A stretch of DNA of 64,000 bases. Source: Trileptium ribeirensis (taxonomy: Eukaryota > Nematoda > Enoplea > Enoplida > Thoracostomopsidae). Below, one piece after another: positions 35,420 through 63,532 of the stretch (its first letter is position 1; every line of letters begins with the position of its first letter). The position numbers and the translations under genes are program-made. The DNA lies in assembly GCA_030248225.1 (NCBI GenBank), contig JASANE010000115.1:1-64000 (forward strand), read 5' to 3'. The notes under the pieces were generated by a model, which was not told the DNA's origin, searched no databases, and saw nothing but the letters and a program-made list of their open reading frames with translations.

Positions 35420-36637
35420 ATGTCTGTACCAGCGAGCGCAATTAGAACGCCGACTAGCAGCACATCAGGAGAAAAATCAGGAAGGCACGCCACCCCAAAT
35501 GGACCGGTACGAACGGGACCCATTAGTAGCAATCCTACAGCAGCTAACGTAAAGGGCAACCACCGTGGCGCCTATAATACAAGTGGGGGACATTCCGCCG
35601 TTTTCAGGAGCAGCACATCAGGAGTAAATAATCTAGGAAGTGGCACAGCCACCACGGCTGATAGTACAAATGGACCAGGTCCCACCGTAAACGGGGACCC
35701 ATTAGTAGCAATCCTACAGCAGCTAACGCAAAGGGCAACCACCGTGGCGCCTATAATACAAGTGGGGGACATTCCGCCGTTTTCAGGAGCTGACGGACAG
35801 GACTTCGAGGCCTGGTTAGCCACCTACGACAATCTGACGGATGCGAACGGATGGACATTAGATCAGAAACTCATTTGCTTCCCGACTGTATTGAAAGGTG
35901 AGGCACTTAAAATTTACGAAAGCTTCCCGGACTGCCAGAAACAAACGTATGAAGCCCTTTGCTATAACGTGGGTTTCATGTACTCTTCCTCCCAGCGAGA
36001 TGAGGACGCCTTAATCACGTTACGCATGCGCATACAGGGAGAACGAGAATCAGTCGCTATGTACGGACTAGACCTCCAAAACTTAGTGGACAAAGCGTTC
36101 CCGGAGGTCGAAGGCGAACAACGTGACGCGTTACTACAAAAATTCCCGCGGCAAGGACTGAGAAAAGAATTAAAATCTGGCGTAATAGGGGAGACTTACC
36201 CATCCTTCAAGCATATGATAGACAAGCTTAAGTATAAAGAAGATGCCATTATAGCGTCCCAAAAGGAAGTTATCGGAGTACCGGTTCGCAAAAGCAGCCG
36301 GTCCAAGACAGTAAACTGCATATCTCAAGGCGCGGAGAACACGCAACTGGTGGATCAGATCCGTGAGGCACTAGATGAGAACAAGCGCACCACAGCTGGT
36401 AGCGATGCTACTATCGCTCGGCTTATTGATCTACTAGATAAGCGCACGGAACAACACCAACTAAATGCAATGATGCAGAATAACGGAGCACCGCAGATAG
36501 GCGCAAGTGCAGTACCACCGCCAGTACCAGTCGGAAACCAGTGTTTTCGATGTGGCTATATAGGGCATTTCGCTAGAGAATGTCCGTATTCCGAATGGAT
36601 GTGTACGATCCATTGCAAAATGAATACACACGTTTAG
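35420..36637 (+). CDS. gag: Gag (capsid/nucleocapsid)
   Basis: 405 codons from the ATG at 35420. Residues 1-95 are Ser/Thr/Gly-rich. A retrotransposon Gag capsid region follows, starting at PPFSGADGQDFEAWLATYD (about residue 120), with the helical LMRMRIQGERESVAMY-like segment near 205-220. A single CCHC zinc knuckle, CFRCGYIGHFAREC, is near residue 380. Just after the knuckle the frame ends; the next frame (36580) continues with an Arg/Tyr/Gln-rich basic tail, so Gag is probably longer in the functional element. The N-terminal part contains a 99-bp duplication read in a different frame from its source (35513-35611 copied from, or to, 35691-35790). Structural protein of the cytoplasmic particle. 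Confidence 0.9.
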   Translation: MSVPASAIRTPTSSTSGEKSGRHATPNGPVRTGPISSNPTAANVKGNHRGAYNTSGGHSAVFRSSTSGVNNLGSGTATTADSTNGPGPTVNGDPLVAILQQLTQRATTVAPIIQVGDIPPFSGADGQDFEAWLATYDNLTDANGWTLDQKLICFPTVLKGEALKIYESFPDCQKQTYEALCYNVGFMYSSSQRDEDALITLRMRIQGERESVAMYGLDLQNLVDKAFPEVEGEQRDALLQKFPRQGLRKELKSGVIGETYPSFKHMIDKLKYKEDAIIASQKEVIGVPVRKSSRSKTVNCISQGAENTQLVDQIREALDENKRTTAGSDATIARLIDLLDKRTEQHQLNAMMQNNGAPQIGASAVPPPVPVGNQCFRCGYIGHFARECPYSEWMCTIHCKMNTHV

Positions 36638-42580: not shown

Positions 42581-42589
42581 CATCGCACT

Positions 42590-43128: not shown

Positions 43129-44877
43129 GTGCCTGCACCGGAAATGGTAGATATCGCAATGGCCCACGCATTAATATTAAGAAGCCAAAGAACAATACCA
43201 ATCGCAGTATTTAATTTCGGAAACACACCGGTCACTATTTATGCCGGACAAACAATAGGTCACATGGAGATAATGATGAACCCAAATGTGCAGTTCCTGA
43301 AAGGCACAAACAAAAATCTGATTCGATATGAGGAACATAAGCCAGCGAAGCACTTAAATAACATCACCACCCACCCTGAAAGAATTATTCAACATATCGA
43401 AGCAGGAAAAAGTTCAATCGACCATGAAAGAGCTCAAACGATCTTGAGTAAGATAAACTTCGATAAGACTTTATTGTCCCCATTTGAGTTAAAACAACTG
43501 AAAACTGCGATCGCTGAGAACGCAGACGTCTTCAGCACGCACGATTTTGATCTAGGGCGTTACACTGAACATAAACACCGCATAGAAACCGGAGATGCTA
43601 AGCCAATAAAGAAAGCACTGTATCGACTAGCACATTCCCTACGCGAACCGCTTAGGGAGGAACTAAACAGCATGCTAGATGCGGGACTAATATCGCCATC
43701 AAGCTCACCTTGGGGATCACCAATAGTGTACGTAACCAAGAGTGATGGCTCACTCCGGCTCTGTGTGGACTTTCGTAAGGTAAACACAGTGGCAGAACAA
43801 GATGCATATCCATTACCCAGGATAGATGATATTTTAGGATGCCTCCGAAACACTAAATTAATGTCTAGCTTAGATTTAAATAAGGGTTTCTGACAGCTAG
43901 AGCTCGATCCAGAAACAAAAGATAAGACATCCTTCGTAACAGTTCATGGACAATACGAATACAAAGTCCTGCCGTTCGGATTGAATTCGTCCCCAGGGGC
44001 TTTTCAACGTTGCATGTCCATGATTTTAAAAGGGTTAGAATGGGAAAATGTTTAATCTACATAGATGACATACTGGTATTTTCACCAACGTTCGAAGATC
44101 ATTTAACGGATCTAATTAGAGTGTTCGACCGTCTCCGCAGAGCCAATTTGAAATTGAAACCGTCGAAATGCCACTTTGGCCGAGGTAGTCTAAAATATTT
44201 AGGACACATAATTAGCACAGAAGGTGTAAAACCAGATCCCGAAAAGGCAATAGCAATCGAGGAATTCAAACGTCCAGAGACGTTGAAGCAGCTTCAAAGT
44301 TTCATAGGACTATTAGGGTATTACCACAAATTTATACCAAACTACTCGGACATATGCGAACCACTCAGTAAGTTAAAGCGCAAGGATACTGAATTTAAAT
44401 GGACACTTAGGTGTGAAGACGCCTTTAAGAAATTAAAACAAACGCTACTAGATGAACCCGTGCTAGTGCACCCTGACTTTACACAGCCGTTCATTTTACA
44501 AACGGGCGCTTCAGTATACGCAATGGGCGCAGTGCTCTCGCAGAAAACTAAACAAGGCCTCAAGCCCATAGCATACGCAAGCAAAGCTCTGCTAGATTAT
44601 CAACGTAGATACCCGCAATCGAAGCTGAAGCTCTCGCGATCAGATGGGCAGCGCTACACTTCAAGCATTATTTAGTAGGGCACAAATTTCATGTCGAAAC
44701 CGATCACAAGCCCCTAAAAGCCTTGTTTCACAAGCCAGAAATTCACGCTTATTGCAGTGGCGCAGTGAGTTACTGCTTGAATTCGCAGGATTTGAAATAC
44801 AATACAGGCCAGGCAAAGAAAACGGCAATGCCGATGCTTTGTCGCGGGACCCTAGGTACGACTTATCCATAAGCTAG
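43129..44877 (+). pseudogene. pol: Reverse transcriptase and RNase H
   Basis: The RT fingers/palm start near 43590 with LYRLAHSLREPLREEL and SPWGSPIVYVTKSDGSLR, then the LSSLDLNKGF motif, where TGA at 43891-43893 replaces the expected Trp codon. VLPFGLNSSPGAFQRCM follows, then YIDD, the catalytic box, at about 44056, after a one-base loss in a T run near 44050. Connection and RNase H follow (LQTGASVYAMGAVLSQ, with Gly in place of the usual Asp at the first acidic position, then ETDHKPLKAL and GKENGNADALSR). At least three one-base frame changes occur (about 44050, 44615, 44730). The order protease-RT-RNase H-integrase is Gypsy-type. Confidence 0.9.
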
Positions 44878-45281: not shown

Positions 45282-48200
45282 GTGGGTCTAAGAGCAACTA
45301 CACTACCCACAGAACAGGAATTTGATAGGCTCATGAAATTAATGATGTACTACGAAACAGAAATACTACCGACCGTTAGGATCGAGGACGCACAGGACAC
45401 TCGCGAAAACATCTACTTACCGTTCTTTTCAGATCTCCCAGATTTAAATTTAGTACGGCTCTTACCATATATACAACGAAATGACCCGGAATTGGGTCCA
45501 ATTTGGTGGTATTTGTACAACAAAACACGGCCCAGGGCCGAGCTAGGCGCACTAAGAATCAAAATGCTAGCTCATTATTTTGAATTAGCTCAGGATACTA
45601 AGATACTGTACATGCATCCATTACAACCAGGAGACATAAACTATAAATTACGTGTCCCTATCACGCTCGTACAACAAATACTCAAACATGAACATAACAC
45701 CTTATATGGAGGATATCCTGGCCATGATCGGCTCATCGCTAAATTGAAACAATTTTATTACTGGAAAGGTATGTCATAACACGCACAACAATGGATCAGG
45801 CGATGCACTCTATGTCAATCCGCGAAGGACCCGATTTCTCGGATAACCACCGGATTGGGCAGGGTTCCGTTGGCAAATCAACCAATGTATCGTGTATTCG
45901 TAGACATACTCGATATCCAGGTCAGATCACAAGCAGGCAATCGCTACGTTATTGCATTTATAGATCAATTTACAAAATTCGCAGTAGCGGTAGCAATAAG
46001 GCACCAGGATGCACATACTGCCGCTCACATATTTTTATATGAGGTAGTTAATAAGTACGGAGCTCCCAGGGAGCTATATTCTGATAGAGGAGGTGCTTTC
46101 ACCGCACACATGTTTGAAAGCCTGTGCCAGGGGATGCACATATTTCGGCACATGAGTTTAGCTTACCACCCTCAAGCAAATGGTGAGATTGAAAGATTCA
46201 ATAGAACATTATTATATCTATTAAGAGTAAGCGTACCGCAAGATGATCACCATTCATGGGATGTATCATTACCATTTTGTGTAATGGCTTATAATTCTTC
46301 GGTACGCACAGCCACCAAATATCCGCGATTTTTCCTAATGCATGGATTTTATCCTAGGTTACCCGGAGAATACGACACGCATAGTGCAGCCACAGGATAC
46401 ACTGGAGCTCACTCATATAGAGCCAACGCGCAGCGCTGGATGGCTTCTATTAGGGAACGCGCATACCAATCAATGAGAGCCGCGCAGGAAGTAAATCGGC
46501 TAAGGTACGATAGGCGAGCTCGCGAACCACGCTATCAAACGGGGGAATTAGTCTGGGTTTATAGACACGATACCACACCAGGAACGTATAGAAAACTCAC
46601 GCCCCGTTGGTGCGGACCATACGAAATACTAGGGATCACACCGCCGTGCATGCGTGTAAGAATGCATTCTAATCCGGAAGGTATGGCGCATGTGGTACAC
46701 CTTAATAGAACTAAGCCGTGTTTTAGGGCATTAGATCCAGTGCCTAATGTAGGAGACTGTCTAGGTCAAGTACACGCCTCCGTTCTAGAAAGGGGTTTAG
46801 ATGAGCCAACTCAACGAATTATCGCTGATAGGGATGTTGTAACAGAAATCGAGCCTGTCGATGAGGTAGCAGTGCGCACAGTAAGAACAGCAGTCAGTGA
46901 TAGTTCGGACACTGAAAGTATAGAAATGGGTGACCCCAACGATCCCAACTTCTACCGCCGGACATACGCAGAAATCGAGGCCGAACAAGCAGCAACGGAG
47001 CACATCGAGTACCGGACGCACGATTACGAACCGCAGAATCAAAGGACAGTCAGGAATCGGATTCCACGGACTGATCCGGATAGAGAAATAGAACCATCTT
47101 GGCCACCAATGTCGCAAGAGCAGGTTACCAGCCGAGAGGCCTTTTCATACATACCAGAACCTGGTAGCCGAGACACGCAGGTAGAATACGGACGACATAC
47201 TGTACCAGTGACCACGATGGAACGAATAGCGGCCACCAGCGAGGAGGTTCCATTTGGCGTACCGACTGTAGGTGTCCGAATACCCGAAGGACAACACTTT
47301 TACCCAGCGGACATCACGCTGTCTACAACACCAAGAGGAGCTTCAGGAGGAATCGTCGTACCTGGACCATACACCTCCGGAGATCTACGTTATGCAATCA
47401 TGCTCGCTGCTCAGGACCATCCATTATTTCAATCGCGACCCGCCGAACATATTATAGCGTCACGACTAAGGGTACCAATGGAGATGGCAACTCAAACTGT
47501 AGGGGACTATACAACAATGCGTCCCTATAGCGCTCCACCAGCAGCTGCCGACAGACCTATGTCTCCCCACCACTATGTCTTTCGTGAGGCGGCTGTTACT
47601 CAGCCACCTCCAGGGTCGCCGATGTCCAGCTACTTGTTGGAGACTTCGGGAGAAGGCACAACCATGGACGTAAGAGCAGCTGAAGCAGACGACAAAGTGA
47701 CCAGCCAAACATCACAGGAACCATCTTCCACCGAGCGGCTCGGTCAGGCAGGACAGGAAACATCAAGTAGCGACTCTAGGACACAATCGGGAACTTCTGG
47801 CTCATTAAGCGAATTCACACTTGCCGGATCAAGTAGCGAAGCGCCAGCGCCTCTAAGAAGAACTGGACGTCCAGTGACCTTGAGTACTCCTCCTCGAACA
47901 CGAGCCCCACCGGATGAGCGAGGAAAGAGCCTTGTTGGAGGAGCCACCCAACGGAAACAGGTCACATCGACACGAGGAAGCTCGACTATCCGGTTTGCTA
48001 GTACCGAACAACCAGGACCGTCCACAGTAACTATCACCGAACTAGTACACCCCGTCACCACTACTACCACTTCCTCAGGAATAATACGACTCAGCACTGC
48101 CCAGGCAACAGCACCGACCAGACACCTCCTTCATCGCCAGGCTAGAGACCGGGTCTTTAGACCATATGGCGTAGCATCGGACGAGGAAGTAGGAGACGCC

Positions 48201-48491
48201 CTACGTAGGCCCAGACGAGTGACTTTCCTGGAACCAACAGCGACTACTAGCGAAACGACCGGAACCTCTACCAGACTGGCATCTACTACTCGCACGCAGT
48301 CCACCAGTGTCACCACCTCAATGACCAGTGCACCAATCTCGACACCCCAACCATTTCGTAGAGGCGAACGCTCCCTAGGCGAAACTCGACCATCAACCTC
48401 ATTCTCACGATATCCTTCCAGCCAAGAATTACACCCTGCGGCTTGGCGACAACGGACACCCCGACCACCAGCGTACGAAGAATCTGATTAA
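45282..48491 (+). pseudogene. Integrase with very long disordered C-terminal tail
   Basis: The N-terminal zinc domain (HEHN...GHDRL...CTLC, HHCC) spans a TAA at 45777-45779. The DDE core follows in the same frame: first Asp in VFVDILD (about 45900), second in YSDRGGAF (about 46080), Glu in NGEIERFNRTL (about 46190). An SH3-like C-terminal part ends near VVHLNRTKPCF (about 46720). Another 580 codons follow, rich in Ser, Thr, Pro, Arg and Glu without a recognisable fold, ending at 48491. Integrases of this group normally end within about 100 residues of that point. The tail might hold a separate accessory protein or a targeting region; nothing in it decides between them. Confidence 0.88.
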
Positions 48492-48743: not shown

Positions 48744-50015
48744 ATGCATCGAGCTCACAGCACCAACAACATCAATGCCCGTTTGATCCCAAAGGGCGTG
48801 CGGCACGCACCAGTGGACATCGACGGGCACGTGTTCCCAAAAGTGCCTCAATACCTCGTGGATCGAGCAGAGCGCTGTGAATTCTTTTCGCTCAAAAGCA
48901 AAAGGTGGAGCTACCTGTCCAACGAACATTCCTCCGCCGATCGCTTCGAACACGACGGGAGGCGTCTCGCCAGTGCTGCCGAGCACTACCATCTCAGCAT
49001 CCTGGAGCTGTTGGGACGCGACGAGGAAGCAAAGGAGTTGGGCGAAATGGACATCTCCCCAACCGAACTCCAGCTCCGCAGCATCGCCCTACAGCGCCAG
49101 ATCCCGCATAGTGTTCGGCGGTGGCACATGTCCTACCGGGCACACCTGATGCGGCCGATTCTGTTGGCAAAATTCAACATCGATGAGTACGCCGAGGAGT
49201 TGGAAAGAACCGGCAGCCGGCCACTCCTCAGCGACTCAATGGACAACTTTTGGGGCACGGGCATGCCCCCGGCCCAATGCAGCGGCCACCGAACAATCTG
49301 CCATAACGTTACTGGCCGGTTGCTCGAGGAGATCCGAGCTTTCAATCGCGACGGGTTCGTTCGATGGCCACGGGTAATAATCGTCGGCGACGAGCAGGCC
49401 CTGCCGCTCCTCGACGTAGCCGACGAGCACAACTGGCTCGTCCTCACTTACCCAACGCTGACAATGGTCGAGCTGCTGCAGTGGGCCAATGCACTATTGA
49501 CGCCGCAGACGGACTGCATCTTCGTCCTTGGCGGTTATGACGACGTGTGGCTGGAACCGCGGAAAGCATTCTCGCCAGGTGCCTATTTCAAGCGCATAAA
49601 ACGGCACCTGGGAGTACTGGATCGGCGCGCCCGGGAAGATGCCGCCATCTACGTTGCGTCGCCTCCCCCACACTGGAACGCCAACAACTACACTGTCGAC
49701 ACCTGGGGACGGCAATTCCGCACACGGAAAACGGAGCTCACTATCAGCCACCAATCGCTCCGTAACGTAATCATGCCACGATGGCCGGCGCCACTCATGG
49801 AACCCGAAGCCTGGGACGCGGTCGGACCGTTCAACCAGGGGGAGGACCGGCGGCGTTGGAACAAACCTGTTGTGGCTCCAACGTGCCACCTCGAATTGGT
49901 CGCGTGGATAGAACAAAACATTCAAAGCGCGGACATTATCCGGCGGCTTATGGAGCGACCACCGCCAAAAGAAGAATATCATGACTATTCTGATAATGAG
50001 GAGCCAAGTATATAA
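48744..50015 (+). CDS. NADAR-like plus SGNH-like accessory protein A
   Basis: 423 codons, intact, ATG at 48744. The N-terminal half has the NADAR (DUF1768/YbiA) pattern: EFFSLKSKRWSYLSNEH (about residue 45-62) in place of the usual Phe-Leu-Ser-Asn-Phe strand, SAAEHYHL (about 76-84) carrying the conserved Glu-His-Tyr, MRPILLAKF (about 135), DNFWGTG (about 171-177), and HNVTGRLLEEIR, matching the Asn-x-x-Gly-x-Leu-Leu end. NADAR proteins act on ADP-ribose derivatives; several remove ADP-ribose from nucleic acid or protein. The C-terminal half has FVLGGYDDVW and ASPPPHWN, resembling the GxND block and fold of SGNH hydrolases, though the terminal Asp-x-x-His is not evident. It is a tandem paralogue of the next gene. 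GC content is higher than the flanking DNA. Function in the element is inferred. Confidence 0.75.
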   Translation: MHRAHSTNNINARLIPKGVRHAPVDIDGHVFPKVPQYLVDRAERCEFFSLKSKRWSYLSNEHSSADRFEHDGRRLASAAEHYHLSILELLGRDEEAKELGEMDISPTELQLRSIALQRQIPHSVRRWHMSYRAHLMRPILLAKFNIDEYAEELERTGSRPLLSDSMDNFWGTGMPPAQCSGHRTICHNVTGRLLEEIRAFNRDGFVRWPRVIIVGDEQALPLLDVADEHNWLVLTYPTLTMVELLQWANALLTPQTDCIFVLGGYDDVWLEPRKAFSPGAYFKRIKRHLGVLDRRAREDAAIYVASPPPHWNANNYTVDTWGRQFRTRKTELTISHQSLRNVIMPRWPAPLMEPEAWDAVGPFNQGEDRRRWNKPVVAPTCHLELVAWIEQNIQSADIIRRLMERPPPKEEYHDYSDNEEPSI

Positions 50016-50255
50016 AGAGGTGGCGGGTACAGGCAAAGAATTGTTAGAGCAGTTTAGAAAGTTGGGAGCAGGGAAGAAACTAAATGTTTAAATCATCCGG
50101 AGATGATAGAGACGCAAACCGCTATACAGGCTAAATTCACTTGAGATAGGCACTTTAACCCAACGACGCATGCACTTGGAAAATAAAGATAGGCAAGGCA
50201 AGCGGTGCGTTAAGCAGATAAGTGTATACTAGATTTATCTAAGTTCCCTTTATAG

Positions 50256-51495
50256 ATGAGCACCAGCAACATCGACGTGACACCAAACCGAAAATCCGGC
50301 GGACGACTACCAACGGTCGGACCGTACGCTCCGCCGGAAACTGCCTTATTCCAGCTACCTACAATCCCGGTCTACCGAGTGGACCTGAATATGCCATATG
50401 CCGCATTCCTCTCGCATGGTACGTATTGCCCAGAGCTGTCGAACATGCACGAAACGCCAGTGCCGTTCAGCAACGATTGCGTCCTTGCCAACTCCGTAGA
50501 GCGGCATTACGACGTCCAGGTGCTGGCACTTCTGGAGCACCATGACGCCGCTCGAGAACTCATCGCATCCACCGACACACCCCTGCAGATCAAATCCCGG
50601 GCGCGAGTGCTAAAGGATGAACTAATCGACTACGTCACTAGCGCTCGCCTTAAGCCGCTGTTGGAGCACATCATGCGCCCAATACTGCTCAAGAAATTCG
50701 CCATCCCGGAGTACGCGCATGTGCTCCAACTTACCGAAAATCAACAACTACTCGAAGCCTCAACGGACTCTTTCTGGGGTGTCGGACGCTCCAGTCAGCA
50801 ACTGCAGAATAAGGAGGCGCCCGGACGCTGCCATAATATCATGGGACGCCTGCTCGAAGAGGTGCGCGAATTCCGCGCCACAGGCAACGTGCGGTGGCCC
50901 CAGACAGCCATATTGAGAGACGCGTTGGCCCTACCCCTGTTGGAAATGGCCGAGGATAATAACTGGTTGGTCAATGGATGGCCAGACACTCATCTCGCCC
51001 GGCTTGTCCAGGCCACCAACGCCATCGTCACGCCGCAGCTGAAGTGCATCATCCTACTAGGCGGCTACAATTACATCTATCGAAAGGCGCCTCTGGAGCA
51101 GCTCCATGCGACAAATCCAAACGCGGCATTCAAGAAGGTAAAGCGCCATCGGGGTTTTATCAAAACGGGTAGCGCCAACTACAACCATCATTATAACACC
51201 GCCTATACCGCGTTGGGTTGCTACCAATCAGGATGCCACGTCCTGGACGGCTGAGCTGAAACAAATCCTGATCAACCATCGTCAACGGTATAACACGCTT
51301 CACAACGTGTTTATTCCAACGTGGCCCGTCGCATTCAACACACCCGATGCGTGGGAGAGAGACGAGCCACACATGGAGTGGGGCGAGCGACCGCAGTTCC
51401 GCGAGCCGATGGTATCCAACTACTGCCGTCGCAACCTACGCGAGTGGGTAAGCCATTTGGTTCGCGACGCTGAGTTGAAACGCTTGGCACCCTGA
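50256..51495 (+). pseudogene. NADAR-like plus SGNH-like accessory protein B (one frame change)
   Basis: The ATG at 50256 opens 332 codons. The frame changes near 51170, and the other frame carries the rest to TGA at 51493-51495. It is colinear with protein A: SVERHYDVQ for the Glu region, MRPILLKKF, DSFWGVG, and CHNIMGRLLEEVREF. The C-terminal half has ILLGGYNYIY (an SGNH block III-like Gly-Gly-Tyr-Asn), IIITPPIPRW, and WERDEPHMEW, which could supply the block V Asp/His that protein A lacks. The duplication is old, since the two differ at most positions outside these motifs. A possible job is reversal of host ADP-ribosylation against the element; this is inference. Confidence 0.7.
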
Positions 51496-52443
51496 GCGAT
51501 TGCGAATAGAAAAGCGGAGCGTTAGCAGCTAACGCAAAGCGAGAAAAGGTAGAAGGGCATGGAAGAAAGTAAGGTCGATAGGCACGGTCTATTGAGAGGC
51601 GCATAGGGAAGAGTAGTCCTAGGCGAAAAGCGCGAGTACATACCTAACTAACAGCAGTAAGATACAGCTAAGGTAACAGCTTACTGTAACAGTCACAAGC
51701 ATTGCTCGTAACTGAACGAGGTAGAAGTAAAAGTTGCAACTTTGATAGGTCGAAAATTACAGAATAAAATTACCAAATAGAATACCCGAGACTGATAGCA
51801 TCGAAAGCCAACCTTTTAACAAATTGAAATAAACTAGAGGAGTAATCGATTTCCAGCTTATTACATGAAAATTGCTTAAAGAAACCCTGGGTCAGGGCAC
51901 AACCGGCAGCCGGGTCCTTTCTTGGGCTGAACCAAATCCATGATGGAGGTACGTGCTAGCGATGTATGTATATATATATACCGTTTTAATAATAATATTG
52001 TGTGCATATGTGTAATGTTTAGAACGTTAGCTGAAATTTAAATAGATCAAGTGAGACACACCTTCAAAACATTACGAATAAAACTAGAATTAAAACTTAA
52101 ACTCAAAATATTATAAACCATAAGGGAAAACTTCCAAAAATGTCGAATAATAAGGGAGAAGGGAGGCGTTTTTGGTGACAACCAAACAAGTTGAACGTCC
52201 TTCTACCCTCGTTTTAGCAAAATTTCTAGTGTAATTGTAGGCCCAAAACGGGCTAAATTTTCCCAAATGGGCCAAATTTTGCAAATTGCGCATTAGTTTT
52301 ACTCAACTTACACCAAGGGCTGTACATCATACTAGATACAAAGGGCAAAATTTTACGAAAACCTTACACTTTTCTATACTTACTGGGTAAAATAATTTCT
52401 ACCATAAGTAAGGAGTCTAATAAATCCAAAAATATTTAAGAGA
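51496..52443 (+). other. 3' untranslated region of the retroelement
   Basis: No coding frame. A purine run (AAGGGAGAAGGGAGG, about 52151-52165) lies 280 bases before the 3' LTR, while the bases directly before the LTR (AAGAGA) are only weakly polypurine. No other feature seen. Confidence 0.5.
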
Positions 52444-52884
52444 TGTAACAGCCCTAGATTTTTAGGGATTTCTAATAAGGCCAAAAGTAGGGAAACATTT
52501 AAACTAAGGCCAAAACAAGGAGTATATCTAACGGGACGGGCGATCGGATACCGGTGGAGCGTGATTCCGGTATTATATGGTGTGTGCATTCATTGTTGTT
52601 ATAAAATTAAAGTCATATCTTGCTTGTTGTATCATCACGCTCCACCTGCCTGGCATGCGCGGGCATGATTATTGTCGCATGAGATATAACAAAATAGGAA
52701 CCCAAATTGCAGGTGTCCGGTCGACCCGAGGTGGATTCAATGATAATATGTACATTTGTAAAAATTTTTGGATGTGTGTATAAAGAAATGTGACTTTATT
52801 TTATTCTACTTTATATGGTAAAAGAGGGTGGTAAAATGTCCGGGAAGGAAAGCGATCAAACCTATCAAAAAGTTATTTTTCCAG

Positions 52885-53006
52885 GGCTACTTAAGAACGA
52901 AATTATTATATCTTCTGACACTTCAGGCCATGTAGGCTTATACCGTTACCAAGAGGGCTCCCTAAGGCTTCAAAATTTTGTGTTCCGGTCAACTTGGTCC
53001 TCACCG
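52885..53006 (+). other. Candidate trapped host exon in 3' LTR (WD40-like)
   Basis: Copy of 29956-30078 with the same acceptor and GTAAGTAC donor (53007). It is 122 nt, one base shorter at its start, and the downstream frame is unchanged. Upstream of it an ATG at 52815 is in frame for read-through translation. Confidence 0.4.
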
Positions 53007-53721
53007 GTAAGTACTTAGGGACCCCTAAGTAGGCGTTTAAACACCCTATTTTCAAGGCCTCCTATCTCCACAGAAATAACCAAAACTCCCCAATTTTTCG
53101 ATCTCTACATCTCCACGGGGTCTTACCCTAACAGTTCCACTGAAAACGGGGACCACCTAACTTAACTGGTCCGAGCAGGACCCTAATAACTCTCCCGGGA
53201 CACCAAAATTTCCTGATTTCATCGTACGAAACCGCCTCTAACAGGCCACCTATGGGAGCTATATTAAATTTAATATTTCTATCAGTAGGCGACCAGCCAG
53301 GGCGTGAACCCGGTCCCGCCCCCGGCCGCCTACTATTTTCGGTTCCCCTGCAATACCAAATAAACTCCAGAACAACATAATAAGTTGGAGCCCTCTAAGC
53401 GCCGATATATTTGGCTGTTGATAAGACCTCGCGCCGACCATCGCGAGGTTTAGTTGTTATTTGCTTTTAGCCACAACAAGCTCTGCTCGCGGGCATCGAT
53501 CATTTTCGACCGGCGGGGTTTTATGATATAGCAGCCGATTTGTGTTATTTCTAAGTTTGTTGTTGCGCTGCTTTCTTTTATGCTTGAGTTGCCATTGCCG
53601 TGTATATGCCTTTGCTATGTATATATAAGCCGGTTAGAATTTTTGAAAATTTGGAATTTTCAGATGTTGGAGATCAGCCAGGGCACTGAGGAACAGCAGA
53701 GAAAAAGGGGGTAGCTGAGAG

Positions 53722-53729
53722 TATAAAAG
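53722..53729 (+). promoter_or_regulatory. LTR TATA box (3' LTR)
   Basis: The same TATAAAAG and flanks as at 30795. A start here would read outward, toward 56014 and the Polinton. Confidence 0.65.
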
Positions 53730-56139
53730 GAAAGGGCTCGACGCAGCGTCGGGACCAGTCGGGAAATGCCGCTCTAAAGGCGGCGGTTTTCTTCTGCAGG
53801 CGGTTGTCGCCATTTGTTTTCCTGTTTTCAAAATTTTGGGTTTTCGTTTCCGGTTTTCAAGCTTAAATCACAACTGGTTTCTTTTGGTTCTCAAACTAAG
53901 CAATTCGTTGAGGGCGCGGCAGCACGCGCCCTATTCACGCTTGCAAATGACTGCGGACCTCCACTCAATTCGAAGGCACTCAGACGAGTGAAGTACCAAA
54001 CAAGGGCATGAGACGGAGTCAGCTGCAACGTATAGTCGAGCCAAATTTTTAGGAAATTCTTGTGCTCGCACCCGTTAGTCGAGCGACAACCCTGAGAAGG
54101 ACCCCAAAGCAATTGTTTTCCCCAACTTTCTGGGAAGGAAAACTTATAGGCGCGGACCCATAAACCGTTTAGACACGGTGGGTTTCAGTATAGCGCCCTG
54201 TTTTCATGTCAAGTTATAATTTCAAAATCTTCACAAGGCAAACAATGTTCGGGAGACGCGGCAGCGCCTCCCTCTTTTGACAAAGGCCCACGCTTTCTAT
54301 CTAATCCTGGCGCACGCAGAGTTTGATGACAAACTTTCATTACAAGTAATCAGCAGCTGACTTCCGGCCTCAAGATAACAAACGGCACATAGATGGAGCA
54401 CAGAGTAAAAAGGGTAATGGCAAGGGGATGTCCGATAGTCCAGAGCGTTTTCATAGGCGAAGTCACCAAACGGTCGGCAAGGGAAGTTCATTTCTGCGTC
54501 CCGTCAGGCGGGTAAGACAGACAACAGCGTACAAAATGCGGGCGCAAGCTCAATCGATTTTTAGGGGTTTAATCAGGTTTAACATCACCCGTTCGGTACT
54601 TAAGTATATCACGGGGTGCCCTGCGAGGTACCCATGTATTTTGGTGTACATATGTGGTGACACGTCACCAGCCCCGTTTTCTTATCGTGATACGCACGGT
54701 GTTTTGCATATCGGGAACGCTAGCTACGTTGTATATGTGTGTTTACGATTATATTTTTCGTTCACTTCTTCTTCACGGTTTTTCAATCTTGTTAGATAGT
54801 GTTTATGCTCAAAATAAATGATTTTCTGATGTTTCTAATGTCTAATCGGAGTTCAGAGGGACGTCTCAGGGTTCAAAAATGATTAGGCGACCTTCATTAT
54901 AACTGGCTTCATTCACAATAAATATATTTCATTTATTCAATATAACGTACCTTAAACCCTCCCGTGGCGTGATATGGTGCCGCAAGCCTGGAACTTGATT
55001 GGCCAAAGTTTAACGTAAAGCAGTGTTCCAGATAGTGTTTGCCGATTCGCACATCCATTAGAATGGAATTTAGTTTTCCAGGCAGTCAATCTTCAAAGTT
55101 TGGAATAACTTTTTCAGTTCAAAATGTACGTCCAATTTGTTTTCTCGAATCCCGGGGTCATACGTCGGACACTCCCACTTCCGTTTCGTGATTACTCAGA
55201 CATTAACGCCGAGCAATTGTCGGTAGCAACCCTGCTTGCATTATTATTGGTTATCTTGGTTACTCGAATGTAATAACTTGCTGTTTATCTAAAGTGTTAG
55301 CGTGTGAAACTTATAGTCAGCGATATGTGCTTAGTGTAGTGATTAAACCAGCGCTTTAAAATCATAAATCAGAAGTGAACCTAAGGCTAAATCTCAACCT
55401 ATAGGACCTCGACTATATTTAGGTCAAGTAAGGCTTTCCTAAGTTGGCGAGGAAAGTACGCCATCTGTTAAGGCTCCGCCGCAGCAGTGATTGGCAAATC
55501 CAAGCTTTGGTTAAATCTTGAAATTCGCAATTTGGCTCACTCAGTAGTTGGTGCACGGCATTACTCAAATTTACTCGCACTAGACAAGAACCCTGGTGAT
55601 TGAGCTCCAGGTGTTCCCTCAAGCTACCGGTTCGGCAAGGAACCTCTAGTGGAACCAACCAAATTTATTGTCTGAACTAGGCTCCCGCGTATCCGACTGA
55701 AACAAGGAATCGCACCTCCATTTAGGATTTAAATAGAACTGAGGGAAAGGCAAGTCAGCCTTATTACCTGCGAGCAGGCTTAGGGGTTGACTTTCCCTCA
55801 GGGGGACCTGCATGCCACTAGACACGTGGGCCAATATAGCGGCCAGGTCGAACACCCTGGTTAACCCGCCGGCAGCCTACTAAGCTAAGCACTTCCCTTA
55901 CGTTATCTAGCAGATCACCGGGGAGTCGTGGAAGCCGGGGTTGTCCGGGCACCACGCCAAGAAAAATTGGTGGTGCAGCTGGGTTCCCTTAGGGCCAGAA
56001 CTGGTCTTAGTACATCGTACACCCTCGGCAATTCATTTACAGAATGGGTGTCACCCTGACTGTCTATACGGTAGGGTCGCGACTACAGGGGGTCAAAAGT
56101 TCCAAACAGCGGGGACATTATAACGTGAACGCCGCATAA

Positions 56140-56364
56140 GATGAATGTGACGCTTGCTTCAACGATCAACCAAGTCAGGCGGATCAAATGGCGTTTGGTG
56201 GATGCACGGAAGAGCCCAGATACAACCGATGTGACATTATTGATGCATGTACAATGCTAAACACTGAATTTAAGGAAAACTGCATAGTGCTGTTATTGAT
56301 AAACTGTATTAAGTTTTTAATAAAACATTTCATCCTTGCCATAGGGAATCATCAGACGGCTTAG
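56140..56364 (+). pseudogene. Polinton left-end gene, 3' half (Cys-rich)
   Basis: Immediately after the right TIR and its TAA duplication, a plus frame runs for 74 codons. It has CDACF near its start, then a Gln-rich stretch, FGGC and a further Cys pair, suggesting a small metal-binding or disulphide-rich tail. The poly(A) signal AATAAA at 56319 lies before the formal stop at 56362, so the true stop probably lies in another frame, with a frame change near 56280. It converges with the minus-strand gene ending at 56406. I infer that it belongs with 28783-29115; the family is not named with certainty. Confidence 0.5.
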
Positions 56365-56405
56365 CGGCTACCGTTATGTTTTTCATTTATTTATAAAATA
56401 CAATT

Positions 56406-56786
56406 TTACAATTTCACGATTATAAATAGCAAACAATACAGGTATATACATGACAATTGATACAATGTATAATCAAATGATTGTCCTTTCTTCATTTCTT
56501 TGACAATATGATCAACCAATTTGATCATTACCCGCCGTTGTTTTTGCAGCTGTATTAAATTGTGCTCCTCTTCCGATTGCCCATCGATATAATCTCCTGT
56601 TGCTTGACCTGGAGCTAAAATCATCCACGTTTGCTTGCCAATAAGCAATTTCTGCATGTAGATATACATTGCGCACATAGTGTTCCATTATTGGTACGCT
56701 TCGCGAATATTGATTCCAATGTATTGCTGACGAAGCACCTTATCCAAATCATATGTTGCGAGATGTTTCATAAACTTCGCTCCCAT
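56406..56786 (-). pseudogene. Polinton unknown protein, one in-frame stop
   Basis: The ATG at 56786 starts 126 codons ending at 56406. A TAA at 56690-56688 (codon 33) interrupts an otherwise coding-like frame. Residues after it are Gln/Lys-rich with a predicted helical LIQLQKQRRVMIKLVDHIV stretch, then a hydrophobic tail. No family recognised. It is the last gene of the minus-strand block and converges with the plus-strand gene ending near 56340. Confidence 0.45.
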
Positions 56787-57131
56787 AAATGTTGGTGAAT
56801 GTATATCCACGATAAATACCAACCGCTAGTACCTGTATAAGTCCATGTTTATAAGGAATTGATAACTTGGTAAATAAATGCTCAAATACATCAAATAGAT
56901 AAACCATCTGTGCGCTCCGTTTAAGACCTTTCGACGGTTTCAATCGAACGTTAAAATGAAGATTTGAACATGTTTTATTAATCCATAGAATATTGTAATC
57001 GTTTGATGGGTTCCACTTTTCACTTGAACCGTTTGTCCAGCCTTCGAAACACACAGTTTTTGTACAATTTTGGGTTTTACATATATCGGTACGCTGTACG
57101 CTTCAGAGCAATATAATCGTCTCACCAACAA
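56749..57131 (-). CDS. Polinton unknown protein(s), overlapping frames
   Basis: Two minus frames overlap (57131-56940 and 57054-56749). The second is the more protein-like: Trp-rich start (CFEGWTNGSSEKW), then VYLFDVFEHLFTKL and an aromatic end. They may be two parts of one gene with a frame change near 57050, or a continuation of the reading region after the major capsid. No protease or other known Polinton motif is visible. Confidence 0.35.
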
Positions 57132-58491
57132 TTGTTATAAGTAATGCAACATATAATGCAATAAAAGGTTTTATCCATACTTAATACAAATGTATCTTTA
57201 GACCTTTTAAGACATTTTATTCCAAAACACTTCCCTTTTTCGTTAATATGTAGTTCAGAGGTAAACTCTCTCATTGCAAATATCACAATTGCATGTTTCA
57301 ACTCCTCTACAAAATCTATTGATAGTCTTACCTGCCCATCTGACGGGTTTGAAACATAATTACAATCACTACTGTGAGCTTTACTTAAATCTATACAAAA
57401 TATTTGATATCCTGCGCCACATCTACACCCAACTTCAGTCAAACCTAAGTTTTTAGTGCTACCATTTAACGCATATAATGTATTGTAAAACAGTCTCATA
57501 TCATTACCAGCTTTACACGGTAGGGAGACATTACAAGGATATCTATCATCATTCATAAATACTGTAAAGCTTTTCATATCAGGTAGACTTAGCTTAAACA
57601 AGTTTGATTTTGCTGCACCTGTGTACGCTTCCAGTGTTATTCCCCAAATATATATTCTTCGAGGTAACACACCATCAAAAATTGTCCAATCTACGTTTTG
57701 TAGACCTTTATTTACAGACAATGTATTTATTTTATATCTTATTGCAGGAAGTATAACTGCCCCAATTCTATTTTGAATTTCAAGAGCTTCTTTTGTTAAT
57801 CGTGCTTTAGGTATATAGAGTTTGAAATCATTGATACGAATTTGAAATTTATTAGATGGTTCATGCAATAGTATTAGAGATGGTTTACTTCGCGTAAATT
57901 TAAATTCCAATTTTGTTTTTGGCGGTAAGTATTTGGGAGTTAAATGTGCATCGATAATTAGTGGAAAATACGTTTCACATTTTTGTGATCTTATTACAAG
58001 TGAATTTCGATAAACGAAACCTACATTATCTTTTAGGTCATCAAACATATATGACTGATCAGGTTTGTAAAGATATCCTGCTAAATATTGTTTTCTTTGT
58101 TCCACACTCATATATAACATATACAATATGTATGTCATCCAGGGGTGTGTTTCTGATTGAAAGTTATTGGTTCCCCATTTATTTTCATCTCAACAGATGA
58201 AAACAGCGCATACCCAAACATATTACATGGTGCAATTTTAAGATCTACATCTTTAATCTCCTTACCATCACTTTTCATTATTTGAAATTCAATATATACA
58301 AATATTTCAGATAAATCAATCAAGTCAAATGCACTTTCACCAATTTTAAAACGAAACGAGTCATCTGTATCAGTGCTCGATAAAGTTGTTTCACAAGCGA
58401 TTTCAATCATTTGTGTTGACATGATTGAGTCTGGAGCAGGGCACTTATCACCCCGCCAATTAAGGTTTGCCACACCGCATACGTTTGACAT
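57122..58491 (-). pseudogene. MCP: Polinton major capsid protein (double jelly roll)
   Basis: Two frames. 58491-58135 carries the N-terminal part (IEIACETTLSS, DLSEIFVYIEFQI, NMFGYALFSSVEMKINGEPI), and 58138-57122 the rest, joined at an ATGA overlap that is a one-base frame change. The family is the Polinton/adintovirus capsid related to the uncharacterised C. elegans protein F54H12.2, recognised by the DSI start, the alternating strand pattern, the Asn-Gly-Glu-Pro turn, LYNTLYALNG, GYQIFCIDLSKA, and the IVIFAMREFTSELHI end strands. It forms the hexon-like trimer of the icosahedral shell. Combined length near 450 residues fits. The last 30 residues look unrelated and may lie past the true end. 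The minor capsid gene lies upstream on the same strand. Confidence 0.8.
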
Positions 58492-58616
58492 TTTTCTTTG
58501 CTGGTTTACGATGCTTTTTAAGACTTTTCTTCTTCTTAATGATTGGAATAGCTTTTAGAAGCTTTCTCGAATTAAAACATAGAGGTAATATTTTTGAAAC
58601 TATTTGCTAAATGCAT

Positions 58617-59243
58617 TCATCCTTTTAAAGAACTAAACCACAATCTTAATATCATCTTTGCATTTGGAAAGAACTCAACACTTTGAAATTCTGAATCAAG
58701 CACTTCAAATCGGAATGCATTTAACATGCGACTGTTTAATTCTAGGTTCACTGTATTTTTCACACTAGATGAAATAACGTGTAGTAATGGTTTATATTTT
58801 CCATTTACTAATCGTTCTTTCACAAAAGAACTCATAAACGTGGGTTTGTTATGTTGCATGTTGACACATTTGTTTCCAACATGTTTCCCGTTTTTCAAAT
58901 GTAAAGAGTTGAAACGGAATAATATTTGTGTTTCCGAAGATATCTTAATTTCAGCCTTACCTAAGATATATACGCTGACAAGATCACAGATGGGGTCAAC
59001 TGTAAACTCAATATCTTGACTAAATGTGTTTAGGTAAGATCACAAAGTGATGATATTATAGTAGCCTTTATCAACAGTAAACCGTTTCCAAGATTTATTT
59101 ATGAAATATTCAACAACACCACCCTCAATATTTTTGTATTTGGTGGGAAGCTGATCATCCAATAGTTTAACTTTTGTAGCGCAAAATGCTGTCGGAAACT
59201 CAACAACCGGTTTGTTCAGATTGCAAACAACAACAACTTCCAT
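58617..59243 (-). pseudogene. Polinton minor capsid (penton-like) protein
   Basis: The ATG at 59243 (MEVVVVCNLNKP) is followed by a frame that ends at 59040. A second frame without ATG is open from about 59037 to 58617 and continues the strand-rich pattern (DIEFTVDPICDLVSVYILGKA; VNLELNSRMLNAFRFEVLDS; MILRLWF). Total about 200 residues, as expected for a single-jelly-roll vertex protein. The position next to the major capsid gene supports the call; the sequence alone is only suggestive. It starts 11 bases after the TBP-like frame ends. Confidence 0.6.
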
Positions 59244-59253
59244 GATTTTTGAT

Positions 59254-59659
59254 TACATTTTATTAAAGTCTTTTAAGGATATTATATATGTATTGCAAGA
59301 CAAATAGAAATCATTTATACACTTACAACCAGTTATAACTACATTCCCACTCCCATAAATCAAACCCGCACCCTCCCCAATCTTAAGTTTCATACTATTA
59401 TACAGCTTACTTACATTACAGTGTACTTGGATCTTAGACTTTCATATACGAAAGGTAAATTTAAGTTAAATCCACATTTCAACATTCCAACATTTTTAAG
59501 TTGTACGTCAAATTTTCGAACGCATGAATATCCCAAATCATTTAATATTTCGTACACTATGTGCAAAATTTGTTTTGCTTCACCTTCTGACTTCACCCCC
59601 ACAAGTACAATCTTTCCATTGGAAAAAAGTAAATCGTTCCACTCGGTTTGAATTTCCAT
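59254..59659 (-). pseudogene. TBP-like protein (TATA-binding fold), two half-repeats in two frames
   Basis: Frame 1 (59659-59411, 82 codons) contains LLFSNGKIVLVGVKSEGEA, then a 20-residue helix and FDVQLKNVGMLKCGFNLNL. This reproduces the order in TATA-binding protein: Phe-x-Ser-Gly-Lys strand, Gly-x-Lys-Ser-Glu helix start, then the Phe-x-(V/I)-x-Asn-(V/I)-x-Gly strand at the start of the next repeat. Frame 2 (59393-59254, open upstream to about 59445) contains GLIYGSGNVVITGCK, which matches the second-repeat Phe-x-Ser-Gly-x-Val-Val-x-Thr-Gly-x-Lys strand-turn, followed by a helix. The two are separated by one frame change. The first strand pair of repeat 1 is not seen. A role in late-gene transcription is inferred. 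Confidence 0.65.
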
Positions 59660-59768
59660 ATTCCACCATTAAATAGTAAAATATCAAAGTCAAAATTTTA
59701 AAGTACACAAGATAAATATAACAAATCAACGCTGCATCCAATGTTTGATGTTATTGTCATATTTGTTA

Positions 59769-60261
59769 TCATTTGTTTTCGTCTCGAATTTCCATCCATA
59801 ACCCACCCAACTTGTTTAGTCTTTCCATTCGCTCATGTCTCGACTTTTTACATCGAGCACGCTTTTTCCGATTCCCCAGTAGAAGCCTGATTCTGATGCT
59901 GCCGCTATTATCGCATTTTCGTTTCCCATTACTGCAGCACGTACGTGAGGTAGTTGATGAAATTTCGGTTTCATCGCAACTTTCATGACGTTTACAGCGC
60001 GGTCGCAGTATCGAAATTTGCGACCTGTTGTCCAAGTTGCTTGTGTATTGATGGTTTATAAGAGTTCATAATATGATGATATGCGATTTTATCGTTGAAG
60101 TACCGAGCCTTTTCGCTTTGATAGCATTGTTCAACGCAGATGTAGGTTACTCCATTAATAGTTATTTTAGCAATATTAAAATTATTAAATAAACTCCATC
60201 CAGATCGGAATAAAACAAGTGGTTTCCCATCAGTGCTAACGCGATACTTGGTATGTTCCAT
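59769..60261 (-). pseudogene. NADAR-domain protein of the Polinton, two frame changes
   Basis: The domain is complete across three frames. Frame 1 (60261-59992): SLFNNFNIAKITINGVTY, then VEQCYQSEKARYFND with the conserved Glu, and the LGQQVANFD strand. Frame 2 (59993-59816): VMKVAMKPKF and FYWGIGKS, the Trp-Gly-x-Gly motif (the preceding Asp is Gly-Phe here). Frame 3 (to 59769): NKLGGLWMEIRDE, matching Asn-x-Leu-Gly-x-Leu-Met-x-Ile-Arg. NADAR enzymes hydrolyse N-linked ADP-ribose or riboflavin intermediates; in phages and defence islands they reverse ADP-ribosylation of guanine. It lies between the small conserved Polinton genes and the TBP-like gene. I infer a counter-defence or repair role. 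Confidence 0.8.
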
Positions 60262-61040: not shown

Positions 61041-61761
61041 TTAACAATAAACAAACATGTAACTGTCATCGGGGAAAATACATTGTCTCGCCCTGAGCAC
61101 ACTTTCTGTTGCTGGTTTTAGATCAAGAAATAGATAACCATACGGTTCCCTTGTTGCTTGCTCAAATGCGCTTGAAAGAAAATCTAGGTTTGAAGGCCAC
61201 ATTTGCCTTCCCATGCTATGTATCATTGACTGATCACGGAATTTGGGAAATAGAGCCATATACTTTCCGAGTTATTGATCGCATGTATTTACCTTCATGA
61301 TATAAATTCTGTGTACCAAAATTGTGCTTAACTTATTATGACGCATACGGAAAATGCTGCTGCAAGCTTTTTATCATTTGAGGCCTCAATAATTAAATCG
61401 TGCAATACACATAAAACGTGTGTCCTGTGTCTGTGGGAAATTCAGAAAGTATACCTTCATGTAGTTCAAAGTTGGGTATTTCGCTCAACATTTTAGCATA
61501 TATATCTTGAAAAATGCTGAAGTATAAACTTTTCTCCACCTTTTCATCAGTACACGTGTTTAAGTAATCTATAAAACAAAGTGTTTTTCCACTTCCTGTT
61601 TGACCACTTACAACACATGTGAACGGTAACTCTAGAGGCAAAAGTACTTTATCACAGCTTGACATAGTTTGTGCTGTACAAGTTTTCTTATGTCTATGTA
61701 AATGTTGGCGAGGAGTATAAGATCGTTCACACTTGTTACATACATGATCCATAATTGTCAT
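61041..61761 (-). pseudogene. A32/FtsK-like genome packaging ATPase
   Basis: Starts at the ATG at 61761 with a C2H2 finger (CNKCERSYTPRQHLHRHKKTC region), then the Walker A SGQTGSGKT at about 61600. The frame breaks near 61395; the next frame carries the Walker B area (DLIIEASNDKKLAAAF, first acidic residue replaced by His). Two further changes lead to the QNLYHEGKYMRSI motif and the C-terminal frame 61259-61041 with FPKFRDQ and YLFLDLKPATESVLRARQ. This order (finger, Walker A, Walker B, Gln-Asn-Leu, Asp-Leu-Lys-Pro) is typical of Polinton packaging ATPases, about 240 residues in total, which pump DNA into the capsid. Confidence 0.85.
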
Positions 61762-61799: not shown

Positions 61800-62490
61800 A
61801 CCATATTGTACCCTGTGTTCCCCTATTTTGTAACCCTGTGTATCCCTATTCTGTACCCCTACGGGTACGTATTGTACCCCTATATACCCTACATTTATGA
61901 TTGTGTACCCCTATGTTGTACCCTGTGCACCCGTATTCTGTACCCCTATGGGTACGTATTGTACCCACATATCCCTTACATTTACCACTATATACTCCTG
62001 TTGTACCTCTATTCTGTACCCCTACGGGTAGCTATTGTACCCATATATCCCTATACTTTACCACGGTGTACCTATATTCTGTACCATACGGGTACGTATT
62101 GTACCCATATATCCCCTATATTTACCACTGTATACTGCTGTTGTACCCGTATTCGGTACCCATACGGGTACCTATTGTATCCATATATCCCTATACATTT
62201 ACCACTGTGTACGTATATTCTGTACCATACGGGTACGTATTGTACCCGTACATCCCTTACATTTACCACTATGTAGCTGTATGTTGTACCCTTACGGGTG
62301 CGTGTTCTACCCATATGTCCCCTACATTTACCACTGTATACTCCTGTTGTACCCCTATTCTGTACCCATATATCCCTATACATTTACCACTGTGTACCTA
62401 TATTCTGTACCATACGGGTACGTATTGTACCCGTATATCCCTTACATTTACCACTATGTAGCCGTATGTTGTACCCCTACAGCGATTGTA
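61800..62490. repeat. Minisatellite inside the Polinton
   Basis: About nine copies of a 63-83 bp unit built from GGGTACGTATTGTACCC, CATATATCCC, TACATTTACCACT and TTCTGTACCCCTA. Each unit contains inverted GGGTAC/GTACCC pairs that can form hairpins. The array fills the gap between integrase (stop at 62477, which is inside its edge) and the packaging ATPase. Three plus-strand frames are open through it only because units lack stops; they are not genes. Confidence 0.9.
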
Positions 62491-63532
62491 AATCCTTTTC
62501 ATGTCCCCATGAATTCATTGATTTAGGGTATCCAAGCCACTTTACAAGGTACTCTATACACTTTTTGGTCTTGCGTTTGCGTATAATTTTCTCAATTTTA
62601 TATGAATCACCCACTACTTTAACGTTTTGCAGCTCTTGCGTATAAAATCTTCCCAATATAGTTTCCTTATTTGCATCTTCAAGCTCGTAAACTGGAGGAT
62701 TGAATGGTAGTTGTTTACTTATTGTAAACACTTCACGTGACCACAACTGGTTAAATCCACGTTCAAAGGAAGCCGTTCAATGGAAACACGTACAATATAG
62801 CCTAGTTGAAATTTATATCGAACATCCACATTTTGCGCTGGAAATAACTTTTCCCGAATTTCATCCTCATTATCAAAGTTTGAAGGTGTGAAACCATAAC
62901 TGTTTTCTGTATTGTTATAACTTTCTACAAGTGATTGAAGAATATTAATATATTTATGAGAATTGTTTGCTGTTAAATATTTCTAAATTTTTTATTTCAA
63001 ATTACGTATAAAACGCTCGGCAATACTTGCTTTTGTTTCCTTATTCTTAGCAGTATAAACATTTATACCATTTTCCTTGCAATAATCATATAAAAAGTCA
63101 TTTACAAACTCTTTACCATTATCTGTTTGAAACTTCTGAGGTTTAACTTGCTCAAAGACTGATTTTAATGCATTTAGAGTAGTAGAAGCTGTCTTATTTT
63201 TAACAGGTATAATCCAAGCATATTTGGAAAAGCAGTCGATAACTACAAGTAAATATTTTATGCCATCATTATATGATAACAAGTTACTCATATCAGCTAA
63301 ATCTGCCTGAAATAAATCATTTAAACCTTTAACAAACGGTACGTCTACGCTGAGATATTAATCTTCTAGGTTTATGTAAAGTATATGTTTCCTGACCACG
63401 TAACCAATCTTGTACTTCCCTAAGTTTTACTTTATAACCTCGTTGCTTAGCTTCTCTATAAAGTTTAGGAGCAGTGGAAAAACCTGCAATACTTGTAGGA
63501 TCGTAGTATATATCTTTAAATTTAGAATCCAT
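62477..63532 (-). pseudogene. int: Polinton integrase with C-terminal chromodomain
   Basis: Retroviral-type DDE integrase for transposon insertion. Fragment 1 (ATG 63532 to about 63345): IYYDPTSIAGF, LREVQDWLRGQETYTLHKP. Fragment 2 (about 63345-62992): FQADLADM with the first Asp, IDCFSKYAWIIPV, FQTDNGKEF with the second Asp, and KASIAERFIRNLK with Glu about 35 residues later. Fragment 3 (about 62974-62755): YNNTENSYG, then an SH3-like barrel (YKFQLGYIVRVS). Fragment 4 (to 62477): VYELEDANKETILGRFYTQEL, then a chromodomain, YKIEKIIRKR...EYLVKWLGYP...NSWG. At least three one-base frame changes separate the pieces. The chromodomain presumably guides integration to modified histones. Polymerase B follows upstream. 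Confidence 0.9.

Follow-up and report, generated by a model that had tools for sequence, protein, structure and literature searches.

Sequence evidence shows NADAR (Pfam PF08719) as an accessory gene that recurs among the mobile elements of the nematode Trileptium ribeirensis, where it is carried by two types of Polinton and by two lineages of gypsy retrotransposon. The stretch analyzed here (the window) comprises the first 64,000 nucleotides of contig JASANE010000115.1 (assembly GCA_030248225.1), which hold a gypsy-type long terminal repeat (LTR) element next to the remains of a Polinton. A reading of the letters of this stretch (the sequence-only reading) had claimed NADAR domains in two tandem proteins of the LTR element, encoded by open reading frames (ORFs) designated here ORF1 and ORF2, and in one Polinton protein. 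That observation is right, yet it understates how widely the domain is carried.

NADAR genes in the window and across the genome

In a Pfam profile scan of the window ORFs, PF08719 (curated cut-off, 35.1 bits) matched the two proteins of the LTR element as well as the Polinton remnant, bearing out the claim of NADAR domains in three window proteins. ORF1 (48744-50012, plus strand, 423 amino acids, without a stop) matched with an E value of 1.3e-7 and 32.5 bits, slightly below the cut-off, and ORF2 (50256-51251, plus strand, 332 amino acids) matched with an E value of 7.4e-13 and 49.5 bits, above it. On the minus strand, two pieces of the Polinton gene matched adjoining parts of a single profile: 59995-60261 (E 9.1e-10; 39.5 bits, above the cut-off; profile positions 17 to 83) and 59819-60055 (E 1.9e-5; 25.4 bits, below it; profile positions 85 to 136). 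The gene structures claimed earlier needed correction. The second LTR gene had been drawn as one open frame to 51495, but its frame stops at 51254 and the remainder (51142-51492) lies in another frame; the Polinton gene, given as a compact NADAR domain at 60261-59769, is disrupted, with its coding sequence divided among three frames. The named motifs (the Glu-(His/Gln)-(Tyr/Cys) helix, Trp-Gly-x-Gly, and the Asn-x-x-Gly...Arg end) are present, the last of these sitting in the third frame of the Polinton copy (piece 59772-60065), but at the position of the catalytic Lys, seven residues past the first Glu, ORF1 has Leu and ORF2 has Val. Compared with its relatives, the window Polinton NADAR has Ala in place of the second catalytic Glu.

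The source genome (687,459,628 bases in 20,229 contigs) was searched with PF08719, for which the control was positive in 3 of 14 known genomes. There were 2,317 NADAR candidates; the 150 best-scoring ones were scored, and all 150 exceeded the curated cut-off, with E values of 2.3e-38 to 3.5e-33, stronger than those of all window NADARs. Twenty places were chosen by hand across these 150 (the best of 2,317) and read with their flanks. All 20 contexts were mobile elements, and none resembled a host gene: 11 were type-1 Polintons, 6 were Polintons of a second type, and in 3 NADAR adjoined a UPF1-like helicase. Ten of the type-1 places were recognized by marker proteins, and one (L023, with two NADARs) was recognized by adjoining type-1 minor-capsid-like ORFs. 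The two Polinton types are 43% identical in integrase, 37% in ATPase, and 28% in the capsid-like protein. The Polinton L013 matched rve (6.2e-11), Chromo (8.8e-12), and Pox_A32 (8.2e-6) and so combines the integrase and A32-like ATPase by which a Polinton was recognized. Its putative PolB and capsid pieces had no Pfam match and were named from gene position and a PolB motif. Both Polinton types also carry a TATA-binding protein (PF00352; L013:5393-5932, E 1.1e-32; L028:5281-5808, E 3.5e-30; L012:1009-1536, E 4.8e-20); a literature search listed three papers that mention both Polintons and this protein.

The helicase-linked NADARs belong to a second gypsy lineage. In L024 and L027, a helicase ORF (1,151 and 1,128 amino acids) with AAA_11/AAA_12 matches is followed by NADAR; the solved structures nearest to the L024 helicase are NAM7/UPF1, and L020 holds a related helicase (56% identical) that is broken after 970 amino acids. 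Gypsy Pol lies upstream of helicase and NADAR in all four places examined (L020, L024, L027, and L048). Pol of this lineage reads as a single ORF in L044, the upstream stretch of one of L020, L024, and L027, where the scan matched RVP, RVT_1, RNaseH, H2C2, and rve; the upstream stretches of the other two are 71 to 83% identical to L044, and L048, of whose Pol the tail was read, shows by eye the order Pol tail, helicase, NADAR, second NADAR. Reverse transcriptase and integrase are 33 to 47% identical to those of the window element. Self-comparison of L020, L024, and L027, stretches shorter than a whole element, revealed no LTRs. A search with the helicase-linked NADAR (150 rows scored of 1,610 candidates) also returned, among its weaker rows, the Polinton places L017, L018, L019, L023, and L025.

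The helicase ORF after Pol spans 1,128 to 1,215 amino acids in L024, L027, L048, and L020 (broken in L020). To our knowledge, a UPF1-like superfamily 1 (SF1) helicase is not a part of known gypsy elements, and a literature search for gypsy elements with a helicase gave no title on such an element among the matches listed. Among the 150 rows scored in the search with the helicase-linked NADAR, tandem NADARs less than 1 kb apart (about 0.9 kb) were seen on 10 contigs (C2231, C9988, C12323, C16111, C1631, C17622, C7579, C19064, C8969, and C19008); C16111 is the contig of L048, whose second NADAR lacks both catalytic Glu residues by eye.

Copies, selection, and origin

ORF1 gave 100 match rows in the genome, its own included (99 of 2,519 candidates were scored): 61 at 68 to 100% identity and 39 at 55 to 59%, with 28 of the 39 free of stops; two rows on C10392 may represent a single gene. 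The sequence-only reading had advised a search of other copies of both elements and had held that retroelement proteins without a profile match, or intact relatives without the domain, would count against it. Neither was encountered: the profiles match, and the relatives read carry NADAR, these relatives having been found through NADAR itself, such that copies lacking the domain would go undetected.

Rows with stops were common among the 100. The 14 ORF1 genes used for selection analysis (the window gene, 12 fetched ORFs, and one from an 8-kb context) were chosen by hand and all lack a stop, so constraint was measured on good copies. The ratio of nonsynonymous to synonymous substitution rates (dN/dS) of ORF1 was 0.075 to 0.26 in 17 pairs chosen from these genes. 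By part, in four pairs, it was 0.11 to 0.23 for NADAR, 0.11 to 0.25 for the C-terminal part, and 0.15 to 0.51 for the first 45 residues. Type-1 Polinton NADARs gave 0.06 to 0.29 in 16 of 45 pairs, close to the 0.10 to 0.19 of the type-1 capsid-like gene in 13 of 15 pairs; the remaining 29 and 2 pairs yielded no ratio, as synonymous sites were saturated. L016 and L022 were dropped from the type-2 comparison because their frame had been misread. NADAR is thus under purifying selection in LTR ORF1 and in type-1 Polintons.

The C-terminal part of ORF1 (about 200 amino acids) had no known match. An SGNH-hydrolase assignment made by eye was dropped after Pfam matched 0 of 12 members and one PDB match had an E value of 0.91. 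Searched at E up to 0.01, ORF1 by itself had no relative in the protein database, nor did a 16-row alignment at E up to 0.001, and viral contigs held no relative of ORF2. For the Polinton and helicase query set, viral contigs gave one distant NADAR (L043), and no relative was found in GTDB genomes.

Within the LTR family, L042, from the 57%-identity group, has the gene order of the window (integrase, ORF1, ORF2), and its ORF2 is likewise broken. Identity between the two copies is 93% over the first 300 amino acids of integrase, 86% in the pol ORF, 57% in ORF1, and 62 to 70% in ORF2; synonymous differences are 0.43 for integrase, 0.53 for the pol tail, 0.63 for ORF1, and 0.74 to 0.82 for ORF2. 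For this one pair, the bootstrap ranges of synonymous divergence of integrase and of ORF1/ORF2 do not overlap, and constraint on ORF1 is looser (0.25 versus 0.05 to 0.10). Because synonymous divergence is higher in ORF1/ORF2 than in integrase, the split of the NADAR cassette seems, in this pair, to be older than that of pol, as would result from module exchange.

In the tree of NADARs, each element class formed its own group, ORF1 and ORF2 together formed a single group, on a very long branch, and the backbone was not resolved. A NADAR protein (P0001) encoded on a publicly available contig of 8,228 bases is 59% identical over 98% to that of type-1 Polintons and fell within the type-1 group; the type-1 Polinton NADAR therefore may not be confined to the present host. 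The sequence-only reading had the elements carrying NADAR "independently," which was not borne out: a grouping that placed every element NADAR in one clade together with two database relatives (P0001 and P0002) was not rejected by the approximately unbiased (AU) test (p-AU 0.14). Once P0001 and P0002 were included, none of five groupings was rejected (p 0.14 to 0.43); apparent rejections (p 0.002 to 0.04) had come from groups without database relatives and were gone once these were added. Neither repeated capture nor one capture followed by exchange is established, because the one-clade grouping survives and the backbone is open. We give somewhat less than an even chance to the possibility that NADAR moved between elements within this host or its ancestry, after one or a few captures. 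The surviving one-clade grouping agrees with such a history, and the excess synonymous divergence of ORF1/ORF2 over integrase in two copies points to cassette exchange at least between relatives; the separate groups of the classes, the long LTR branch, the unresolved backbone, and the small sample of outside NADARs count on the other side.

The LTR element and the Polinton of the window

The window parts are as follows.

29518..33629, plus strand: 5' LTR of the gypsy-type element, about 4 kb (blastn pieces against 52444-56015 and repeat analysis)
35420..36634, plus strand: Gag-like ORF with zinc knuckle (ORF list, by eye only)
43129..43890, plus strand: reverse transcriptase, first part (blastp, 34% over 249 amino acids to Pol of the second gypsy lineage)
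44010..44672, plus strand: end of reverse transcriptase and RNase H (RVT_1, 4.1e-11; RT_RNaseH_2, 8.8e-25)
45855..48488, plus strand: integrase with long C-terminal tail (rve, 3.4e-12; first 300 amino acids 93% identical to L042)
48744..50012, plus strand: ORF1, NADAR (residues about 53 to 199, altered active site) and C-terminal part of about 200 amino acids (PF08719, 1.3e-7)
50256..51492, plus strand: ORF2, 38% identical to its tandem paralogue ORF1, with a frame break near 51142-51254 (PF08719, 7.4e-13)
52444..56015, plus strand: 3' LTR (blastn pieces against the 5' LTR)
57122..58491, minus strand: Polinton major-capsid-like gene in two ORFs (56% over 316 amino acids to the L013 gene; no Pfam match)
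59414..59668, minus strand: Polinton TATA-binding-protein remnant (PF00352, 2.4e-6)
59769..60261, minus strand: type-1 Polinton NADAR pseudogene in three frames (PF08719 pieces and comparison with relatives)
61393..61761, minus strand: 5' part of Polinton A32-like packaging ATPase (50% over 176 amino acids in this region to the L013 ATPase, which matches Pox_A32)
62477..63532, minus strand: broken Polinton integrase with chromodomain (62% over 193 amino acids in this region to the L013 integrase, which matches rve and Chromo; ends by eye)

The LTR element extends from about 29.5 to 56.0 kb and has both the LTR pair and the reverse transcriptase-RNase H-integrase order of Ty3/gypsy. Its LTRs (about 4.1 and 3.6 kb) aligned by blastn in three pieces of 94.7 to 96.4% identity, and each holds a stretch absent from the other. 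Polinton genes lie on the minus strand to the right of the LTR element, which was likely inserted within the Polinton, the left flank being judged by eye. The gene at 57122..58491 is presumably capsid-like, a name taken from gene position.

The LTR element also has long ORFs between Gag and Pol (37593-42715). By eye, they include a transmembrane stretch near 42200-42300, continue into a DTGA motif resembling that of a protease, and were taken as an envelope-like gene preceding Pol; 37593-40082 and 41627-42712 had no Pfam match. A repeat array of TGTACCC-type units (61839-62526) separates the integrase gene of the Polinton from its ATPase gene, and ORFs of similar repeats occur in L015 and L028. 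Elsewhere in the genome, contig C17193 (L047) carries the remains of a disrupted COX1 gene in which, by eye, AGA stands at two positions usually occupied by Gly, a weak hint of the tunicate code; GH6 was not found in a search whose control was silent.

Active sites, function, and known systems

Residues E43, K50, and E125 are numbered as in the P. nicotianae NADAR, for which they were named (PMC11543638), and were placed on 8bau and YbiA by alignment. By mutagenesis, the Lys is essential for hydrolysis of guanine-ADP-ribose, and Arg can substitute for it in vitro (PMC11543638); NADARs tested in two studies hydrolyze guanine-ADP-ribose (PMC11543638, PMC11125620). At all 15 type-1 Polinton places read, NADAR keeps E43, K50, E125, D130, and W133. 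Catalytic residues are also kept in four of the five helicase-linked NADARs read: fully in L024, in L027, and in the first NADAR of L048, and in pieces in the broken L020.

The best explanation, advanced with confidence a little short of even, is that element NADARs act as ADP-ribose erasers where the active site is complete and as binders or enzymes of changed chemistry in the LTR element and other copies where it has changed. With a complete active site, type-1 Polinton and most helicase-linked NADARs would most likely be ADP-ribosyl hydrolases or N-glycosidases. The ADP-ribose removed would have been applied by the host, probably on guanine of element DNA or RNA; alternatively, the targets could be ADP-ribose derivatives from a host response. 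In the LTR element and in some other copies, the active site has changed but selection is retained; for these NADARs, binding of an ADP-ribosylated target or an altered chemistry would be more likely, possibly in the role of partner or decoy next to an active copy.

Several results weigh against this explanation. Type-2 Polinton NADARs keep E43 and K50, but E125 is Asn (four) or Tyr (two) and W133 is Phe in 6 of 6. In the second NADAR of L048, by eye, E43 is replaced by Gly and E125 by Lys. In all 14 ORF1 genes K50 is Leu, and E125 is Asn (six), Ser (five), or Val (three). In ORF2 (window and L042), K50 is Val, or Leu in another register, by eye. On the host side, the genome search gave seven exon-level PARP matches on five contigs (14 candidates; control positive in 0 of 14), no DarT candidates (control positive in 1 of 14 known genomes), and no Scabin-like protein (control silent). 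Seven PARP matches appear to be an ordinary number for an animal. The expansion of host ADP-ribosyltransferases that the sequence-only reading had thought worth looking for thus showed no sign, and an unfamiliar ADP-ribose writer would escape such searches.

The proposal that both elements undo host ADP-ribosylation accordingly fared unevenly: both carry NADAR and keep it in other copies under purifying selection, but the LTR proteins lack the Lys that PMC11543638 calls essential and so are unlikely to be ordinary guanine-ADP-ribose hydrolases. An eraser mechanism appears plausible for the type-1 Polinton and helicase-linked genes and doubtful for the LTR proteins. The sequences hint at a possible host ADP-ribosylation defense that the elements would have to undo. 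In its fullest form, which we consider rather unlikely, the host would ADP-ribosylate foreign nucleic acid, two Polinton types and two gypsy lineages would carry NADAR erasers, and tandem copies (complete plus degenerate, as in L048; in changed form, ORF1/ORF2) would split cleaving and binding.

The residue pattern of the LTR proteins also bears on a quite improbable alternative, in which ORF1 and ORF2 would be NADAR-derived binding or structural proteins, no longer enzymes, active for example in packaging or chromatin contact. Loss of Lys at K50 throughout (14 of 14 ORF1 and both ORF2), loss of Glu at E125 in all ORF1, and the conserved, unmatched C-terminal part, with constraint on both parts, would fit such a role. 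However, ORF1 keeps E43 and the Asp in 14 of 14 genes and the Trp-Gly pair in 13 of 14 (L038 has Leu for Trp), ORF2 keeps both Glu residues, the second in a loop one residue shorter (by eye), and changed chemistry would give the same residue pattern. Alternatively, the NADARs might serve element RNA metabolism or nucleotide or riboflavin chemistry (as N-glycosidase, or on RNA-end repair products) rather than counter-defense, which appears unlikely. NCBIfam TIGR02464 (riboflavin-intermediate N-glycosidase) matched above its cut-off in all three NADARs tested from Polintons and helicase-linked genes, a match that leaves the substrate undefined; NADAR adjoins an RNA/DNA helicase in one gypsy lineage; nematode SNA-3 employs NADAR domains in trans-splicing (PMC9303266); and processing of RNA intermediates has been suggested for NADAR-bearing retrotransposons (PMC12477816). 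Carriage by elements with DNA and with RNA intermediates would, however, better fit a shared obstacle.

NADARs are known to reverse ADP-ribosylation of guanine, and what the eukaryotic ones do physiologically has been called unclear (PMC11125620). Several kinds of DNA and RNA element that keep NADAR under selection amount to a natural experiment on its purpose, which relates to something that is met in the same cells by retrotransposons as well as by a DNA virus-like transposon. The question is testable on single proteins: type-1 Polinton, helicase-linked, and LTR tandem.

NADAR is likewise an accessory gene of selfish replicators in nidoviruses, iridoviruses, ascoviruses, and phages, where it was suggested to reverse ADP-ribosylation by the host or signals based on ADP-ribose (PMC9503650); the main text of that survey does not contain polinton, transposon, retrotranspos, or retroelement. 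Our literature search found no paper joining NADAR and polinton among those it covered, and YbiA and DUF1768 were absent among the matches listed. The DarT1-linked and P. nicotianae NADARs belong to the same profile family and share E43, K50, and E125 with type-1 Polinton and most helicase-linked NADARs, but no DarT was found in this genome and the LTR proteins lack K50 (PMC11543638). SNA-3 similarly combines several NADAR domains, one without catalytic residues; it is a host trans-splicing protein, whereas the NADARs here are mobile-element genes (PMC9303266). NADAR in retrotransposons has already been published, conserved across families, for an Ectocarpus Gypsy lineage (YbiA-family NADAR at the Pol N terminus) and for Crassostrea gigas (oyster) Tx1 long interspersed nuclear elements (LINEs), in ORF1 (PMC12477816). 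In contrast to those placements in Pol or LINE ORF1, the present retroelements carry NADAR in tandem, as separate ORFs that follow integrase and have a new C-terminal part, or next to an SF1 helicase, and Polintons carry it too. The new part is the recurrent carriage of NADAR under selection within a single genome.

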